Positions 9,650 through 30,659 of a stretch of DNA of 37,775 nt are shown piece by piece. The DNA lies in NCBI GenBank assembly GCA_017624955.1, contig JAGAMA010000038.1:1-37775 (forward strand), written 5' to 3'. The number at the start of each line of letters is the position of its first letter. Within the stretch, counting starts at the first letter, position 1. A model generated the notes under the pieces. The model did not search any database and had not been told where the DNA came from. It saw only the letters and a list, made by a program, of their open reading frames with translations. Position numbers and translations under genes: made by a program. Source of the stretch: Alistipes sp. GTDB taxonomy: Bacteria > Bacteroidota > Bacteroidia > Bacteroidales > Rikenellaceae.

Positions 9650-9835
9650 ACGAAGAGAAAGCAGAGAGGAGAGAGCAAAGAGGAGAGAGGAGAGAGCAAA
9701 GAGCAGAAAGGAGAAAGACTAAAGAGATTAAGGAAATTAAGGATATTAAAGAGATTAAAGAGCGCATCCTTAATTTCATTATTCTCATTAATATCGTTAA
9801 TATCATTATCTCGTTAATCTCATTAATTTCCTTCC
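9650..9835. repeat. Purine-rich tandem and inverted repeat region
   Basis: A purine-only stretch (GAGGAGAGAGCAAA-type units) is followed by 9-base tandem units of the form ATTAANGAN (about 9726-9762). Their inverted counterparts run at about 9768-9832, so the whole can fold on itself. A similar element occurs at 36620-36775. No coding potential beyond low-complexity Ser-Leu-Ile repeats. Confidence 0.7.
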
Positions 9836-9864: not shown

Positions 9865-9872
9865 TATTTTTG
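9865..9872 (+). promoter_or_regulatory. -7 box of hemW
   Basis: TATTTTTG fits TAnnTTTG. Transcription would start at about 9878-9879, at the A of the hemW ATG, which would give a leaderless or nearly leaderless mRNA. No -33 TTTG is seen at the right spacing. Confidence 0.45.
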
Positions 9873-23350: not shown

Positions 23351-24226
23351 TTAGAAGTACTTAACCGTCGTTCCCTCGATAGCCGAAATCAGGTTGTTGG
23401 CCACCGACGAAGCACCGATACGGAACAGCTCGGGCGTAAGCCACTCGGCACCCAGAATCTCCTCCACGATCGTGTAGTAGAGCGCCGCATCCTCGGCCGT
23501 GCGGACACCTCCGGCAGCCTTGAAGCCGATCTTCTTACCCGTCTTCTCGTAGTAGTCGCGGATCGCCTGGCACATCACTACCGCCGCCTCGGGCGTGGCA
23601 GCCACATCGATCTTACCCGTCGAGGTCTTCACGAAGTCGGCACCGGCAAACATCGACAACAGCGATGCCTTACGAATCAGCTCGGGTGTCTTCAGTGCAC
23701 CCGACTCGATGATTACCTTCAGCACCACATCCTCCGTGCACTCCTCGCGCAACATCTCTACCTCCGAGGCAGCCTCGTTGTACTCGCCCGAGAGCATATG
23801 GCCCACGTTCATCACGATATCGATCTCATCAGCTCCATTCTCCACAGCCATCGCAATCTCCAGCGCCTTGACCTCCAGGAAGGTCTGCGAGGCGGGGAAA
23901 CCGCCCGCTACGCTCGTGATGCGCATCGGCGTACCATCCACGGCCAGACCTACGGTCTCCACAAACGAGGGATAGACGCAGATCGAGGCTACGTTGGGGA
24001 TGTGGGGGTACTTCTGGTAGAACTCCGCAGCCTTCGCTGCAAAGGCCGTCACCGAGCCCACCGAGTCGTTGCACGAGAGGGTCGTCAAATCGATCGTCGA
24101 GTAGCAGAACTTATAGACCTCGGTCGTGCAGTTCTTCTTGGCCGCCTCCTTGATACGGGCCACCTCGTTATCCACCTGCTCCACGCTCCAAGCGGGTGCA
24201 TATTCATTGAGCTGATTGATGTACAT
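23351..24226 (-). CDS. deoC: Deoxyribose-phosphate aldolase
   Basis: It splits 2-deoxyribose-5-phosphate to glyceraldehyde-3-phosphate and acetaldehyde in deoxynucleoside catabolism. From the ATG at 24226, the Schiff-base Lys200 is in FVKTSTGK and the second conserved Lys236 in IGFKAAGGVR; VCVYP-like (ICVYPSFV), EIDIVMNVG and VIIESG motifs are all present. Length 291. A GTG nine bases upstream is in frame, but the predicted -7 box at 24251-24258 leaves only about 9 bases of leader for it, so I prefer ATG. It stands alone rather than in a deo operon. Confidence 0.92.
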   Translation of the reverse strand: MYINQLNEYAPAWSVEQVDNEVARIKEAAKKNCTTEVYKFCYSTIDLTTLSCNDSVGSVTAFAAKAAEFYQKYPHIPNVASICVYPSFVETVGLAVDGTPMRITSVAGGFPASQTFLEVKALEIAMAVENGADEIDIVMNVGHMLSGEYNEAASEVEMLREECTEDVVLKVIIESGALKTPELIRKASLLSMFAGADFVKTSTGKIDVAATPEAAVVMCQAIRDYYEKTGKKIGFKAAGGVRTAEDAALYYTIVEEILGAEWLTPELFRIGASSVANNLISAIEGTTVKYF

Positions 24227-24250
24227 AGCATTCACTTTTAAGGTACATTA

Positions 24251-24258: not shown

Positions 24259-24263
24259 GTAAT

Positions 24264-24520
24264 TTTTTAATTAATATGCTCAAGGTGTACACGGAATTTC
24301 ATCTAACTCTCACCCAGCATCCCATAAAGATACCAATCATTCCAATAATATCCAAATGCGTGTTAAATAATTTAACTTGATGATTTATAGAGAATTAGAG
24401 AGATAATTAAGAGAAAAATAATAAACATATAGCTGGGAACACAATCTCATCTATTGAAATGGTTACCAATAAGATAGATTATTTTAGTGTCAACCTGTGA
24501 TATATTAACTGATTTTTTTG
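24264..24520. repeat. Long direct repeat, copy A (257 bp)
   Basis: It matches 28479-28733 in the same orientation. I count eight substitutions and one 2-base indel (AC present here only), so about 96% identity. It contains no ORF. It lies between deoC and the surface-protein cassette. Its left edge is the TTTTTAATTAATATGC run, its right edge the poly-T/G at 24513-24520. Confidence 0.95.
24325..24356 (-). promoter_or_regulatory. Promoter-like pair inside repeat copy A, toward deoC
   Basis: Minus-strand TTTG (24356-24353), 20-base spacer and TATCTTTA (24332-24325), one base from consensus. Transcription would reach deoC with a leader of about 90 bases. The same pair is in copy B. Confidence 0.45.
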
Positions 24521-24537
24521 TAGGGATCTTGGTTTTT

Positions 24538-24582
24538 TAGGGTGGTATGGGTCACTTTGAGTCACTTTGTGACCACACCCTA
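24538..24582. other. Imperfect inverted repeat downstream of copy A
   Basis: TAGGGTG...GGGTCAC (24538-24555) pairs with GTGACC-CACCCTA (24569-24582) with a small internal mismatch. It contains a GTCACTTTGA direct repeat in the loop. It could be a terminator-like or operator structure. Nothing else but promoter candidates is recognised in 24521-24934. Confidence 0.45.
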
Positions 24583-24616
24583 ATATTGAATCCTAAATTT
24601 GAATTTTAGACAATCC

Positions 24617-24648
24617 GTTGCTTGTTTGGAAAATAATGCTTAATTTTG
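24617..24648 (+). promoter_or_regulatory. Candidate promoter of the surface-protein cassette
   Basis: GTTG (ending 24620), 20-base spacer and TAATTTTG (24641-24648). It would give a long leader of about 280 bases before the 39-residue peptide gene. A second TAnnTTTG (24594-24601) lies nearby with no -33 partner. Confidence 0.5.
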
Positions 24649-24934
24649 TTCTATAATCCACGAGGGTTGCAGACATATTTTAGTGAAAGTGTTTCGCTAA
24701 TCCTTACATCGAAATCTGGAAAATTTCATCTGGTCAAGGAGAGCAATAACACTTCATTGCTCGTGCTGGCTGTGGTTTAGAATAGATATTCCATGCCTAC
24801 GGGTGTGGAGTATTGTTTATTTGACCAAAGGTATTTCCAGAACCTCGATGTAGATGAACGAAAGCTGCTCCACACTTTCTTTTTTATTACAAATGCTGTA
24901 TCGGGGCAGCTGCGGCGCAAAAAGTCCAAACAAA

Positions 24935-25054
24935 ATGAAGAACGAGATGTATATCGCCCCCGAGGCCGAGGTATTGGAGATTGCCGTAGAGCAGGGTTTT
25001 GCAACGAGCCCGGGCGATGGTGGCTCGGAGGGTACCGGTTCGGAAGATTGGTAA
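24935..25054 (+). CDS. 39-residue peptide upstream of the surface lipoprotein
   Basis: The product starts MKNEMYIAPEAEVLEIAVEQ and ends GSEDW, with GFATSPGDGG between. It has no signal peptide. The charged, amphipathic N-terminus, the 'VEQGFATS' core and the Gly/Ser/Asp-rich end with terminal Trp match a type of short peptide gene that I recall just ahead of fimbrillin-like and other surface-protein genes in Bacteroidales; function not known. It ends 19 bases before the next gene, so the two are likely co-transcribed. A longer frame back to 24854 exists but lacks this family's appearance. Its length and composition make chance unlikely. Confidence 0.65.
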   Translation: MKNEMYIAPEAEVLEIAVEQGFATSPGDGGSEGTGSEDW

Positions 25055-25073
25055 TCATTTAAGCTTTTAAGCC

Positions 25074-28000
25074 ATGAAGATAATGCGGTATGTGTACGGG
25101 CTTTTGCTGAGCCTGCCTTTTGTCGTATCCTGTTCCGAAACGGAGGGGATTTTCGAGACAAATGATGTTCCCTATTGGAAGCGTGATTTAGTGATCGAAG
25201 CCACACGCGAGGGGCACGAGTCGGAGACACGCACCATTCGGCAAGAGGATGGTGCTGTTTACTGGAATCCGGCTGACGAAATCAGCCTCTTCTTTATGCG
25301 TGGCGAGAATGGTGGTTATAAGTTTACCTCGCAAAATACCGAGGTGACTGAAACTGCCGAATTTGCTGGTTCGATCAGTGGTATTACCGGAGGTGGCGAA
25401 AATCTTACGGATAATGCCTATTTCTGGGCGATTTATCCCTACTCCAAAGAGAATGCTTGCGAGAATAATTCGCTGATCACAAGAATCTCGGAAGAGCAAC
25501 AAGGCCTTGCGGAGACTTTCGCAGATGATACCTTCGTCACTGTTGCCCGTTCAATGAATGTTAAGATGGGATTCTATAATGTTTGCGGCGGTCTTCGATT
25601 TACGGTATCTCAAAGTGGTATCAAATCGGTCTCTTTCCGTGGCAACAATGACGAGGTGTTGGCCGGTAAGGTGCGTGTAGAGTTCAACGAAAGTAATATT
25701 CCCGTTGTTACAGAGATCCTTGATGGGCAAAAAGAGATCACGCTCGTCGCTCCCAACGGTGGGGAATTTGAGGTAGGAAAGTTATACTATCTTGTTGCTC
25801 TACCGAAGGCTTTGGAGGGTGGTTTTACCATGACCTTCCGCAAAACGGATGGCACTGTCGGAGTATATACCCGTACCACAGGTGTAACCCTCAAAAGATC
25901 CATATTTGGTACTGTTCGTAACCTCGATGCCGGCTTGACCTTCTACGAAGAGGAAGAGTCGGGCGAGACCGTTACGGGCGGTAGCGAAAGCGGTTTCTAC
26001 CTGGGTATTATCGGTTTTAATGTCGATTTGTACCCCTATCCTATTCGCAAACTGACGGAGGAGAGTGTTGCAGGTTTCCACTCGTTTATCGATGGACTTT
26101 CCATGTTAAAGGGTACGCTACTCTATTATGCAGTAGACAATTCGTTGGATGCATTATTGGCAAGCACCTATCCGAGTAATTTATACGATGTAGCCGTTGT
26201 AACCTTCACCGATGGTTTGGATCTTATTTCTATAGACCGAGTAGAGATCGATAAAGGCATCGTTTATCTATCTAGGGATGAATATTTGGAGGCAATTCAC
26301 ACGCGCTTGAACGAAGAGAAGGTGTCGGGGCAAAGTATTACGGCCTACTCAATTGGTGTTGAGGGTAATGACGTAACCAACTCCTCATTATTCCAAAAGA
26401 ATCTGGAAAAAATCGCTACCTCATCAGACAATGCATTTAAGGTAACAAATATGTCTGAAGTCGCCGAAAAATTCACGGAGATTGCCAACCAATTGGGTGA
26501 AACAAAATATGTTCAAACAATTACGCTGAGGGCTTCTGCGCCGGACAATCAAGAACGAGTCCGTTTTACATTCGACAATGTTTCCTCCTATTCATCTTCA
26601 AAACTATATATAGAGGGCACATTTAACCGTGCTGCTAATCCTAGAACTTTGGAAAATATTACCTATGTTGGTCTGACCTCTACTTCGGGAAGCACGATCA
26701 CCTGCCCACGCGATGCCCAAGGTTTTTACGAATTCACTTTCGAGGGGATACAAGCTGACAACGGAAAGTTAGTTCCCGACGATTATCAGCAACGCTGGTA
26801 TACCACAAGTGGTATATGGGAATTTGATTCGGAGTTTGATCCTGCTCAAAGCGATTGGACCACGCAAACCGTCAAGCGCTCTGCAGCTATTTTGTTGAAT
26901 CTTGACTGCTCCAGCTCTCTTGGCACGGAGTTCCCGAAGCTACAAGCCGCAGCCAAATCGTTCGTGTCACTCCTCTACGAGAATTCCATCGACCCGAATG
27001 CGGTGGCTTCGATCAGCCTCAATAAATCGACTCTGACGATGGTGACGGGCAATGTCGAGACGCTGATAGCAACCGTACTGCCGACAACCGCATTGGATAC
27101 TCGTGTAGAGTGGTCTTCGACTAACGCTGCGGTGGCTACAGTGAGCAATAATGGTGTTGTTACGGCCGTTGGCCCGGGTAATGCAACGATCATTGCCAAG
27201 ACGGTGGATGGCGGTCTGACTGCGACCTGTAAGGTTTCGGTGGTAACCCTGGCTCAGGAGATTACCTTCGACTGTACGGAGCTGGAGATCTACAACGGCG
27301 AGAGCTACACCCTGCAGGCGACCGTGCTGCCCGAAGATACAAGCAACAAATCGCTGAGTTGGGCAAGCTCGAACACGGCAGTTGCCACGGTCGATGACAA
27401 TGGTGTGATTTCCCCCATCCAGGCGGGCACAACTACGATTACAGCTACTACACAAGATGGGTCAGGGGTAGAAGCCTCATGCCTTGTAACAATTTTACAA
27501 CAAGTTACATCGATTGCCCTGAATTATACATCTGCGCAATTAGAAGTTGAGGATACATTCAACCTTACCGCAACCATATCGCCCAGCAATGCCTCAAATA
27601 AGAATGTATCGTGGAGTTCCTCCGATAACACAATTGTGTCAGTTGATCAAAATGGCCTTTGCACAGCGCTTCAAATTGGTACCGCTGTCATTAAGGCGGA
27701 ATCTGTTGATGGTGCATCTTCCGCAACATGTTCTATTACAGTTTCGCCCATCAATTATGAATTGCGCAAGATCTATTATACCTCGACAGATGGGCAGGTA
27801 GTTGAGCCCGCAAATAAGAGTGTTTTTGGAGCAACCGTAATATCTAATTATTACGAAAATGGGCAAGGTGTAATACTGTTCGATGGAAAAGTTACGAAAA
27901 TAGGAAACCAAGCATTTAAGGATGTTGTAGGACTAGTTTCTATTACCATTCCTTCTGCAGTTATGACAATTGGAGAACATGCATTTCGAGGAATATCTTC

Positions 28001-28424
28001 TTTACAGGTTATCCATATTCCCAGTAGCGTAACCTCTATTGGGAATTATGCGTTTGCTCAATGTGATCAATTAGAAGATATCACGATACCTAAGAACATA
28101 ACAGAAATTTCTGCTTATTTGTTTTGGCAATGCGAGAAATTAACCAGCATTACGATTCCAAGCGGAGTGACAACTATTCGAAATCATGCGTTCTACGAAT
28201 GTTCTAATTTAACAACAATTTATTGCCAACCAATACAGCCTCCTAGAATTCGTACAGATTTGCATTACGCGACATGGGAAACCTTCAGCGGAAATGCTCC
28301 TAATCGAAAAATCTATGTACCGTCATCCGAAGATCATAGTATTATCTACGCCTATAAGACAACTTCATATTGGGATGATTATGCCGATGCTTATGTCGAG
28401 TACGACTTCTCGACAGCGGAGTAA
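25074..28424 (+). CDS. Modular surface lipoprotein: fimbrillin-like, vWA-like, BIG2 and BspA-LRR parts
   Basis: A 1116-residue adhesin-type lipoprotein (lipobox VVSC, Cys20). Residues about 35-295 look like an N-terminal fimbrillin-type domain. Residues about 305-480 look like a von Willebrand A fold with a TFTDGLD motif but no DxSxS in the first strand. A separate DxSxS-like site, D611-C-S-S-S, occurs at 611-615. Three BIG2 Ig-like domains follow (about 642-720, 726-805, 811-890, each with WSS.NT/A...V and NG). Last are BspA-type leucine-rich repeats (about 920-1095, 'ITIPSGVTTIRNHAFYECSNL'). Base composition turns clearly AT-richer from about 27480, in the third BIG2 and LRR part. The cassette is bracketed by direct repeats. 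Binding target unknown; likely surface adhesion. Confidence 0.85.
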   Translation: MKIMRYVYGLLLSLPFVVSCSETEGIFETNDVPYWKRDLVIEATREGHESETRTIRQEDGAVYWNPADEISLFFMRGENGGYKFTSQNTEVTETAEFAGSISGITGGGENLTDNAYFWAIYPYSKENACENNSLITRISEEQQGLAETFADDTFVTVARSMNVKMGFYNVCGGLRFTVSQSGIKSVSFRGNNDEVLAGKVRVEFNESNIPVVTEILDGQKEITLVAPNGGEFEVGKLYYLVALPKALEGGFTMTFRKTDGTVGVYTRTTGVTLKRSIFGTVRNLDAGLTFYEEEESGETVTGGSESGFYLGIIGFNVDLYPYPIRKLTEESVAGFHSFIDGLSMLKGTLLYYAVDNSLDALLASTYPSNLYDVAVVTFTDGLDLISIDRVEIDKGIVYLSRDEYLEAIHTRLNEEKVSGQSITAYSIGVEGNDVTNSSLFQKNLEKIATSSDNAFKVTNMSEVAEKFTEIANQLGETKYVQTITLRASAPDNQERVRFTFDNVSSYSSSKLYIEGTFNRAANPRTLENITYVGLTSTSGSTITCPRDAQGFYEFTFEGIQADNGKLVPDDYQQRWYTTSGIWEFDSEFDPAQSDWTTQTVKRSAAILLNLDCSSSLGTEFPKLQAAAKSFVSLLYENSIDPNAVASISLNKSTLTMVTGNVETLIATVLPTTALDTRVEWSSTNAAVATVSNNGVVTAVGPGNATIIAKTVDGGLTATCKVSVVTLAQEITFDCTELEIYNGESYTLQATVLPEDTSNKSLSWASSNTAVATVDDNGVISPIQAGTTTITATTQDGSGVEASCLVTILQQVTSIALNYTSAQLEVEDTFNLTATISPSNASNKNVSWSSSDNTIVSVDQNGLCTALQIGTAVIKAESVDGASSATCSITVSPINYELRKIYYTSTDGQVVEPANKSVFGATVISNYYENGQGVILFDGKVTKIGNQAFKDVVGLVSITIPSAVMTIGEHAFRGISSLQVIHIPSSVTSIGNYAFAQCDQLEDITIPKNITEISAYLFWQCEKLTSITIPSGVTTIRNHAFYECSNLTTIYCQPIQPPRIRTDLHYATWETFSGNAPNRKIYVPSSEDHSIIYAYKTTSYWDDYADAYVEYDFSTAE

Positions 28425-28441
28425 AATCCATTGATACACTC

Positions 28442-28483
28442 ATTCAGCGCGGGTATTGTTTTTAATACCTGCGCTGAATTTTT
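28442..28483 (+). terminator. Terminator of the surface lipoprotein gene
   Basis: A 16-bp stem (28442-28457 with 28464-28479, one G-T) has a 6-base loop and is followed by T's. The stem's last base and the T run are already the first bases of repeat copy B. Confidence 0.9.
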
Positions 28484-28733
28484 AATTAATATGCTCAAGG
28501 TGTACACGGAATTTCATCTAACTCTCACCCCGCATCCTATAAAGATACCAATCATTCCAATAATATCCAAATGCGTGTTAAATAATTCAACTTAGTGATT
28601 TGTAGAGAATTAGAGAGATAATTAAGAGAAAAATAATAAACATATAGCTGGGAACAATCTCATCTGTTGAAATGGTTACCAATAAGATAGATTATTTTAG
28701 TGTCAACCTGTGATATATTAACTAATTTTTTTG
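28479..28733. repeat. Long direct repeat, copy B (255 bp)
   Basis: Same orientation and about 96% identical to 24264-24520. It holds the same minus-strand promoter-like pair (28568-28571 CAAA and 28540-28547 TAAAGATA on the plus strand), here pointing at the 3' end of the lipoprotein gene and its terminator. No ORF. The rest of the gap to 28919 holds a terminator. Confidence 0.95.
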
Positions 28734-28919: not shown

Positions 28920-30659
28920 TTAAGCCTCCATGATGGCCTTCAGCAGCACATCCTTAGCAGCCTTCTCGGCCAGCTCCGGAGCCTTGGCGATAGCCGACTT
29001 CAGCTGAGCCTTAGCCTGAGCTACCTGACCCTCCTTGGCAGCGATTACGGCGCGGAGGTAGTCAGCGTCAGCCGACGTCTCGTTAGCCAGTGCCTTCTTG
29101 GCAGCAGCCAAGTCGTTGTTCATTACATAAGCGATAGCGGCGTTGTAACCCTCGAGCTGGGCAGCAGCAGCCTGGTAGTTACCCTCGGCAGCAGCAACAG
29201 CAGCCTTAGCCTCACCGTCAGCAGCGGCAGCGTACTTCTTGGCAGCAGCCGTGTTGCCGTTAGCCAGGTTAGCCAGCAGCAGGTTCTTGTTCAGGTCAGC
29301 CGACGGATCAACCTTGGCAGCCTTCTCAAATGCCTTCAGAGCCTCAGCCTTCTCACCGGCCTTCGTCAGAGCAACACCGAGGTTGTTCCATACGCGAGCA
29401 TCGTTGGGATACTGCTTAGCAGCCTCCTTGAGGAAAGCAACAGCCTGCTCGGGCGTCTTAGCCAGCTCCTGAGCCGTGAAGAGGTACTCCTCAACGGTCA
29501 TCTCCTGACCCTGGTTGGCAGCAGCCATCAGCTCAACGTCCGTCTTACCCTGGATGTCGGTGCTGTTCACGATCTGAGCACGACGCAGCTCGGGAAGCAC
29601 GTCATCCTTCAGCTCACCGTAAACCGACGAGAGGTTCTTGATCTCGGCCTCACGCTCGGCGGGCGAGTTGTAGAGGCTCAGTACCTGCAGAATCAGGTTC
29701 TTGTCCTTGATATCCGAAGCGGCAACCATCTCCTTGAAGCCGTCCCAGTCCTCACCATAAGCAGCAGCGTCTACATCGAGACCCGTCTCAGCGAGTACCT
29801 TGGCAACAACCTCCTTCGACGACTCGCTACGAGCCTTCGAGAGCTTGTCGTTGAACTTCTCCGGACCATCGGGCGAAGCGTAACCCTTCACGGCGATGTT
29901 CTGCGTAGCACGGTCGTTACCGAGCTTCTCATCAACGTCAGCCTTGAAAGCGTCCAGGTCAGCAGCAGCCTGGTTCTTCTTCGTTACCTTCGACGAGTTG
30001 ATGGCGTAGAGCAGGTCGGTCTTGTTAACAACCGTCGTTACGCGCTTGTAGTTGTTGGCCATGTTCTCCATCAGGTCACCGTACTTGATGTCCTTCTGCA
30101 GCGTGTTCAGACCGTAAGCTACAACCAGACCGAACTCGCGCTCGATAGCGTTCTTGGCAGCAGCATCGTCACCGGCGAGGATAGCAGCCTCCTCCTTGGT
30201 CGGGATAGCGCCGTTGTTCAGGTTCACGAGCGTGAACTCCTTGCACTTACCCTTCGGGCACTTCACCTCGGCACGCATCTGGAGAGCGCACTCATCCATA
30301 CGAGCGTCGTAGGGGAACTCAACATGCATCGTGTAGTTACCACCGTTCGTCTTATCAACTACGGCATAGTTCTCGTCAACCTTCGAACCCTGGAAGTACT
30401 TCGTCTGACCGGCAACCTCACCGCCCTCGAATACGAGAACCGGCGTTACCTTCAGAACGGCCTTCTTGTTGAAATACTCAACCGGGAAGGTTACATTTAC
30501 ATCGGCAGCGATCACACCGTTGTTCAGAACCAGGATCTCAGGCGTGCAGGTTACCTTAACCTCGTCCTGGGCCTTAGCCATCTTCTTGAAGCAATTGCAG
30601 CTCGAGAAAGCCAGCGCGGCAGCAACCAGCACCACGCTCAGTTTCATGAAGTTTTTCAT
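28920..30659 (-). CDS. Lipoprotein with OmpA-like and TPR regions
   Basis: A 579-residue lipoprotein (lipobox FSSC, Cys21) that should sit in the envelope. The N-terminal beta-rich part (about 30-190) is followed by an OmpA-like segment with IAVKGYASPDGPEKFNDKLSK (about 260-282), where the 'GYASPDG...N..LS..R' pattern recalls peptidoglycan-binding OmpA domains. TPR-like helices fill the C-terminal third (about 395-575), rich in Ala and Lys with 'YPNDARVWNNLGVALTKAGE' as a clear TPR. Codon use is strongly biased, suggesting a very abundant protein. A peptidoglycan-linked structural or secretion-support lipoprotein is the likely role. I cannot name a specific orthologue. Confidence 0.75.
   Translation of the reverse strand: MKNFMKLSVVLVAAALAFSSCNCFKKMAKAQDEVKVTCTPEILVLNNGVIAADVNVTFPVEYFNKKAVLKVTPVLVFEGGEVAGQTKYFQGSKVDENYAVVDKTNGGNYTMHVEFPYDARMDECALQMRAEVKCPKGKCKEFTLVNLNNGAIPTKEEAAILAGDDAAAKNAIEREFGLVVAYGLNTLQKDIKYGDLMENMANNYKRVTTVVNKTDLLYAINSSKVTKKNQAAADLDAFKADVDEKLGNDRATQNIAVKGYASPDGPEKFNDKLSKARSESSKEVVAKVLAETGLDVDAAAYGEDWDGFKEMVAASDIKDKNLILQVLSLYNSPAEREAEIKNLSSVYGELKDDVLPELRRAQIVNSTDIQGKTDVELMAAANQGQEMTVEEYLFTAQELAKTPEQAVAFLKEAAKQYPNDARVWNNLGVALTKAGEKAEALKAFEKAAKVDPSADLNKNLLLANLANGNTAAAKKYAAAADGEAKAAVAAAEGNYQAAAAQLEGYNAAIAYVMNNDLAAAKKALANETSADADYLRAVIAAKEGQVAQAKAQLKSAIAKAPELAEKAAKDVLLKAIMEA

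Follow-up and report, generated by a model that had tools for sequence, protein, structure and literature searches.

Passenger genes can lie between transposon ends without a transposase gene, as in mobile insertion cassettes (MICs), and a case with qnrS2 that combines a miniature inverted-repeat transposable element (MITE) with a MIC has reportedly been found. The insertion sequence IS26 generates an 8-bp target duplication. The portion of PMC13055272 used here describes pseudo-compound transposons of IS26 and IS1216, in which directly repeated elements bound the passenger and cointegrates are formed, as well as translocatable units, which are circles with one element copy. Structures termed TIME-COMPs are presented in the part of PMC13367494 drawn on here as composites in which two short non-coding, Tn3-derived miniature elements (TIMEs; e.g., TIME244, 244 bp) bound a gene block; the bounding copies are direct or inverted, the target direct repeats lie outside the outermost ends, and movement is thought to occur by paste-and-copy cointegrate formation. 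TIMEs themselves have Tn3-like ends and duplicate 5 to 6 bp (PMC13367494). Within the Bacteroidales, BrickBuilt and other MITEs of Porphyromonas gingivalis are intergenic, non-coding, inverted-repeat elements; BrickBuilt has 23-nt tandem repeats and IS5-like ends, and gene-carrying pairs are not described for it in the part of PMC4596501 on which we rely. The general MITE features used for comparison were taken from part of PMC10969869.

The locus analyzed here contains two copies of a short element, M, that bracket a surface-lipoprotein cassette. It lies in a stretch of 37,775 nucleotides (the window), which is a whole contig of the 2.1-Mb draft genome of an Alistipes sp. (genome G000). Among described systems, TIME-COMPs are the closest kind to M units. 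As in TIME-COMPs, two short non-coding copies bound genes in the window, with a target duplication outside the outermost ends at a site that is empty in relatives, and a cointegrate reaction similar to that of TIME-COMPs is proposed for M. However, the duplicated target is 8 bp long rather than 5 to 6 bp, both in the window and around other M pairs; the ends read [AG][AG]TTAATAT...; and M occurs in a gut Bacteroidales genus, where it brackets adhesin, permease, redoxin, or acetyltransferase genes. M units share with the IS26 and IS1216 structures the directly repeated bounding elements, since 12 of the 13 close M pairs are direct and only 1 (L018) is inverted (p = 0.002), as well as the proposed cointegrate formation and, by analogy, a putative circle with one element copy. 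In contrast to IS26, M has no transposase gene, and an IS6-family transposase (PF13610) was found in 0 of 12 genomes. M units differ from MICs in that their ends are complete, directly repeated element copies. M is also like the P. gingivalis MITEs in being an intergenic, non-coding, inverted-repeat element of a Bacteroidales genus, and unlike BrickBuilt in its ends, in lacking the 23-nt tandem repeats, and, going by the text cited above, in forming gene-carrying pairs. We consider that M units are best filed as MITE-bounded composite transposons. Such units are not described in the titles and abstract openings of the papers retrieved on miniature inverted-repeat elements in Alistipes and on these elements and composite transposons in Bacteroidetes, from a collection in which subscription journals are thinly covered.

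The first-pass annotation of the window had reported direct 255-bp repeats of about 96% identity, and this was confirmed: the copies at positions 24264 to 24520 and 28479 to 28733 are 96.1% identical over 257 columns. A chance repeat was ruled out because the pair is the longest repeat reported in the window and because similar DNA was present in 6 of 61 genomes, including the window's own, one of these being a weak 38-base match. The element proper covers 242 and 240 bp of the 255 bp. The left M copy (AATTAATATGCTCAAGGTGTA ... CCTGTGATATATTAACT; 24269 to 24510, plus strand) was delimited by the repeat search, by comparison with copies from the genus, and by its terminal inverted repeats, and the right copy (28484 to 28723, plus strand) by the repeat search and copy comparison; 233 of 242 columns are identical, and a 2-base gap and 7 substitutions account for the other 9. 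What remains of the 255 bp is flanking sequence rich in T, some of which belongs to the duplicated target. Flank comparison placed the inner flanks at 24511 to 24518 (GATTTTTT) and 28476 to 28483 (GAATTTTT); they agree at 7 of 8 positions, a match that is weak on its own because of the T run. The outer sides of the unit carry the same 8 bp, AATTTTTT, at 24261 to 24268 and at 28724 to 28731. The transposon-like inverted ends of the repeats and this target duplication go beyond the earlier annotation.

The repeats had further been said to enclose a unit consisting of a candidate promoter, a 39-residue peptide, an adhesin, and a terminator. All but the promoter were borne out, since a consensus promoter scan of the region returned 11 sites compared with 10.1 in shuffled sequences and hence no excess. 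The ORF of the 39-aa peptide was recognized by translation (24935 to 25054, plus strand), and the peptide has no Pfam or NCBIfam match. It is followed by a gene for a predicted surface lipoprotein of 1116 aa (25074 to 28424, plus strand), the lipobox of which was assigned by eye and which matches Pfam families Big_2 (three stretches; 4.4e-42) and LRR_5, the BspA leucine-rich repeat (3.7e-34). An intrinsic terminator of the adhesin gene was identified by terminator scan and folding (28442 to 28479, plus strand; -26.6 kcal/mol, z -9.2), and its T run adjoins the right M copy. The cassette leader contains a near-complete hairpin of 200 nt (24684 to 24883, plus strand) with a folding energy of -69 kcal/mol (z -6.17), and none of 200 shuffled sequences was as stable. 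A search with the cassette matched 41 of 180 genomes, including the window's own, mostly through relatives of this hairpin at 70 to 77% identity; the hairpin has the appearance either of a conserved leader or of another dispersed element with a palindromic structure. By eye, some of the aligned hairpin copies appear to be on the reverse strand. In the other 179 genomes of the genus, with two candidates scored per genome, the adhesin cassette had no near-identical counterpart; the nearest matches were a partial paralogue in the same genome (79 to 87%) and a sequence in G062 (67%). Elsewhere in the window, short tandem repeats with periods of 7 to 21 are located at 9655 to 9827, upstream of an ORF at 9870.

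The unit is inserted between deoC on its left (23351 to 24235, minus strand; Pfam DeoC) and a gene for a TPR-repeat protein on its right (28920 to 30659, minus strand; Pfam TPR). In 7 of 9 relatives (G024, G033, G020, G008, G124, G112, and G139), these two genes are adjacent and 124 to 259 bp apart, and in G062 and G123 no TPR gene was present within the stretch examined beside deoC. M was absent from the deoC stretches of all nine relatives (blastn, E values up to 0.01), all compared genomes being drafts. In G033, the TPR protein of which is 98.8% identical to that of the window, the site reads ...ACAAATATAG-TAATTTTTTT-GCAAAG..., whereas the window reads ...ATAGTAATTTTTT-[M-cassette-M]-AATTTTTTTGCAAAG... 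The uninterrupted site of G033 has a single AATTTTTT, and the window has one at each outer edge of the unit, which constitutes an 8-bp target duplication. The simplest account of the empty site in 7 of the 9 relatives and of the duplicated AATTTTTT is that the unit entered here, duplicating 8 bp of target, once the lineage had separated from these relatives.

To characterize M, 53 copies were compared, which were taken from loci fetched around end-motif matches and thus do not amount to a full census; some occupy orthologous sites in two genomes, and the copies are therefore not fully independent. M starts with [AG][AG]TTAATAT and ends with ATATTAA followed mostly by CT, TC, or TT. The cores measure 70 to 247 bp, have a mean GC content of 31%, contain no ORF longer than 47 aa, and carry no transposase gene. 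The terminal inverted repeats are imperfect: in 48 of the 53 copies, pairing involves 14 to 18 of the roughly 22 end bases, compared with a mean of 7.9 and a maximum of 13 in shuffled sequences. Allowing at most 3 substitutions, 39 of the 53 copies retain an internal palindrome similar to GTTAAATNATTTAAC, versus 6.6% in shuffles. M thus shows the size (under about 500 bp), AT richness, lack of a transposase gene, and terminal inverted repeats of a MITE; a target duplication around single copies was not seen, as their flanks agree at 7/8 or better in 3 of 32 cases, which is the chance level. A reading of M as a structured RNA was rejected, since the window M folds no better than shuffled sequences on either strand (z -0.5 and -1.4) and Rfam, at gathering thresholds, reports nothing in the window other than a tRNA. 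A 26-bp flank, GTAAAAATCAATATATCAGTATTTTT, precedes M in five genomes (L026, L035, L040, L042, and L029), with one base differing in L040; it resembles an M end, and nested or tandem elements are likely.

Several searches addressed the distribution of M. Within the genus, the left-end motif (at most 1 mismatch) turned up in 16 of 151 genomes and its reversed control in none, and the right-end motif (at most 2 mismatches) in 44 of 180, with reversed-control matches in 5. M matched 0 of 24 genomes from other genera of the same order. In an order-wide set, one right-end variant occurred in 4 of 393 genomes; the three matches besides that in the window's own genome were found only at two mismatches, and the reversed control also gave three matches at two mismatches. 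A distribution wider than the genus was rejected because these matches were equal in quality to those of the control. The exact left-end motif was found in 18 stretches of named records, of which 15 were assigned to Alistipes, 2 to Rikenellaceae, and 1 to Bacteroides, and 14 of the 18 record titles name a ruminant gut sample. A phage or plasmid origin was discarded after two exact M end motifs gave no matches in viral contigs, and blastn of M against plasmid and phage records likewise returned none. Because of the features of the copies and the outcome of the motif and M searches, we conclude that M is a MITE-like family with several interior types that has so far been seen only in this Alistipes-like genus. 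One truncated M left end (L067 1-1619; G082 C29) is situated at a contig end directly before a terminase-like gene (Terminase_6N/6C), which is possibly a prophage remnant.

The first-pass annotation had proposed to search the genome and its relatives for the repeat and to record what lies between copies. Related pairs do enclose other genes. One such direct pair (C34), located in the window's own genome beside a gene for phosphoenolpyruvate (PEP) carboxykinase, encloses a second peptide-plus-lipoprotein cassette, with a 39-aa peptide (L226 13562-13681), which has no NCBIfam match, and a 283-aa lipoprotein. The leading 39-aa peptides of the two lipoprotein cassettes (24935 to 25054 in the window) are similar in composition. 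Other direct pairs enclose a TauE-type permease (G020 C5), three ORFs (G020 C12), two ORFs judged by eye to be similar to regulator pairs of the BlaI/BlaR type (G020 C1), a DUF4377 protein (G112), a redoxin-like protein (G015), a 533-aa ORF whose sole match is weak and glycosidase-like (G119), and a 169-aa ORF (G062). Between the two 97-bp M copies of the latter pair (L198 3375-4677; G062 C21), the 169-aa ORF is accompanied by what appears by eye to be a 3' fragment of an SPFH-like gene, which suggests that this cassette is captured chromosomal DNA.

We then compared the 8 bases beside each M for the 11 direct pairs in which both copies were resolved, which corresponds to 22 outer and inner comparisons; neighbors with a partial M copy (L058, L072, L167, L174, L183, and L189) were left out of the pair counts, and 2752 cross-genome pairings served as the null. 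There is an excess of matching flanks in pairs. Nine of the 22 comparisons match at 7 or more of 8 positions, compared with 4.87% in the null (binomial p = 4e-7), and six are exact, compared with 0.47% (p = 8e-10); a 9-pair subset without the G033 and G024 pairs near the PEP carboxykinase gene gives the same matches (p = 6e-8). Outer and inner flanks both match at this level in 3 of 11 pairs, namely, the window (outer 8/8, inner 7/8), G020 C5 (outer 8/8, inner 7/8, with outer and inner flanks alike), and G062 C21 (outer 7/8, inner 8/8, with outer and inner flanks different). Two pairs (G020 C12 and G015) have exact inner and unmatched outer flanks, and the reverse holds for one (G112 C8). Outer flanks therefore match in 4 of 11 pairs (window, G020 C5, G112 C8, and G062 C21). 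Neither side matches in the remaining five (G119, G126, G000 C34, G033, and G024); the bracketing copies are of different types in the G126, G033, and G024 pairs. In 6 of the 11 pairs, the bracketing copies are reciprocal nearest neighbors among 54 copies. The value for single copies, 3 of 32, is at chance level (3 of 35 under the 9-pair list) and only weakly different from the outer matches of the pairs (Fisher p = 0.058). The G020 C1 pair (L017), which was found by eye and stands outside the 11-pair statistics, has the outer flank AATTATTA twice and the inner flank AATTTTGG twice, the latter with a one-base slip; its inclusion raises the outer matches to 5 of 12 (Fisher p = 0.025).

Further data bear on movement between sites and species. 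At the PEP carboxykinase locus, two M copies surround the lipoprotein cassette in G000, a single M of the G000 type without the cassette is present in G033, a single M of that type adjoins an unrelated 198-aa ORF in G024, and the arrangement in G008 differs again. G128 and G112 share an acetyltransferase cassette at 98.5% identity over 804 bp, and G033 and G126 share a different segment at 98.6% identity over 569 bp, which in G033 lies at a contig end. The deoC proteins of G128 and G112 are 79% and 88% identical to that of the window, and those of G033 and G126 are 95% and 78% identical, which places upper bounds of about 91% on the identity between G128 and G112 and of about 83% on that between G033 and G126. 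Because the cassette DNA is 98.5 to 98.6% identical while the deoC proteins are at most about 91% and 83% identical, this comparison points to a horizontal spread of cassettes, for which the draft state of the genomes calls for caution. The acetyltransferase cassettes of G128 (L167 3717-4744) and G112 (L183 3469-4466) end in the same 62-bp part of M, and the other boundary of the G128 cassette is a fragment that duplicates the 3' end of the neighboring phosphoribosyltransferase gene; the uninterrupted site of the G128 cassette is present in L201 (G088).

The search for a mobilizing enzyme covered four transposase families in 12 to 20 genomes and returned no autonomous partner with M ends. In addition to the absence of IS6-family enzymes mentioned above, an IS1595 transposase was found in 0 of 12 genomes. 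IS256/Mutator transposases matched in 2 of 20 genomes, and where their ends were seen they differ from M. One of them belongs to an IS256_Zn_var insertion sequence (L241 1045-2049; G033 C15; 334 aa) with the inverted repeats GGTAATGTTGCCAAAAAGGGCTGCTGG, and a near-identical, partial transposase ORF is present in the window's own genome (L240; G000 C37); this insertion sequence was rejected as a partner because its ends in G033 are unlike M. DDE_Tnp_1 was found in 1 of 20 genomes (G015, two loci) and was set aside because neither locus has an M-type end (at most 2 substitutions). Unpaired M ends were also inspected for a longer autonomous element; what one such unit, the ends of which are unlike (G128, L167 3717-4744), encodes is an acetyltransferase and not a transposase.

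The reading that we favor, and regard as probable, is that a circle with one M and a cassette fused into the target by a replicative, cointegrate-type reaction, so that the unit moves as a whole. M would be a miniature non-coding inverted-repeat element, two direct copies of which bound a cassette and move with it as one unit. The cassette would travel as a small circle that holds a single M between flanks t, and an enzyme acting in trans would use the M ends to fuse the circle into a target T. This fusion would duplicate M and give T-M-t-gene-t-M-T, as judged from the flanks; the reciprocal nearest-neighbor M copies in 6 of 11 pairs are as predicted by the duplication of one M. Recombination between the two M copies would in turn release the circle and leave one M behind. 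Homologous recombination with a resident M is probably a further way in for circles, giving X-M-t-gene-t-M-Y; this second route is suggested by the G020 C12 and G015 pairs, the inner flanks of which are exact and the outer flanks unmatched. In favor of the circle reading are the empty, M-free site in relatives, the excess of matching flanks in pairs, the preponderance of direct pairs, and the near-identical cassette DNA of distant species; against it count the failure to find M-type ends with any of the four transposase families, the five pairs in which neither side matches, and the weak difference in outer matches between pairs and single copies.

Each of the other explanations accounts for part of these data. 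The first-pass annotation had read the repeats as the mark of an excisable or replaceable module or of single-crossover integration. A mobile module is supported by the empty site in 7 of 9 relatives, the 8-bp duplication, and the other pairs, and single-crossover (Campbell) integration is a live alternative, albeit an unlikely one in our estimation. It holds that M alone was first inserted at deoC and that a circle of M and the adhesin gene then recombined in by homology, which yields the same final structure. Entry into an old resident M would also produce the flanks of G020 C12 and G015, and the PEP carboxykinase locus, with a lone M of the same type in G033 and two M copies around the lipoprotein cassette in G000, fits such entry. 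The same lone M is the one suggestive case for the earlier idea that adhesins are swapped through related repeats. On the other hand, a lone M at deoC was found in 0 of 9 relatives, and flanks match less often around lone copies than around pairs, a difference that is itself weak. Slightly more doubtful is ordinary composite transposition, in which two M insertions around a resident gene create a linear M-cassette-M that is moved by a transposase acting at its outer ends and no circle is involved. This accounts for both the empty site and the 8-bp duplication on the outside, and the G112 C8 pair, with identical outer and unequal inner flanks, is what it predicts, but it leaves unexplained the identical inner 8-mers in G020 C12, G015, and G062, the reciprocal nearest-neighbor copies, and the bias toward direct orientation.

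Two further readings concern the repeats themselves. The M copies inspected sit in AT-rich, mostly intergenic DNA and largely retain the internal palindrome, as might be expected if the repeats had an intergenic function unconnected with mobility, for instance as regulators, terminators, or structured RNA. As a full explanation this is very improbable, since it is contradicted by the lack of the unit at the orthologous site and the target duplication around it, and the folding of the window M also argues against it; a regulatory side role for M is possible. Even less credible is an assembly artefact in which two contigs were misjoined at a shared repeat. All the sequences are drafts, and several M copies are at contig ends, but 9 columns distinguish the two window copies, M on both sides of one cassette with a perfect outer duplication is not what misjoined linear loci would yield, and the same M-pair architecture recurs in several genomes.

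Beyond the circle-and-cointegrate reading of single units, we tentatively raise the broader and rather unlikely possibility that M is a transposase-less, genus-wide platform for shuttling genes, which turns chromosomal genes into circular units. Its passengers would be surface proteins, permeases, redoxins, and acetyltransferases, which would enter new AT-rich intergenic sites through a cointegrate-type reaction of a putative trans-acting enzyme, with recombination into a resident M as a second route. Such a platform would work like IS26 or an integron cassette system without a resident insertion sequence or integrase. M units are invisible to transposase-based annotation, and the defined ends of M and the 8-bp signature make them searchable; the mechanism is open to direct testing through empty sites, single-M junctions, and circles. 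For the gut Bacteroidales, the finding illustrates a way in which genes for surface proteins and other functions can be acquired and relocated singly, without an obvious phage, plasmid, or insertion sequence.
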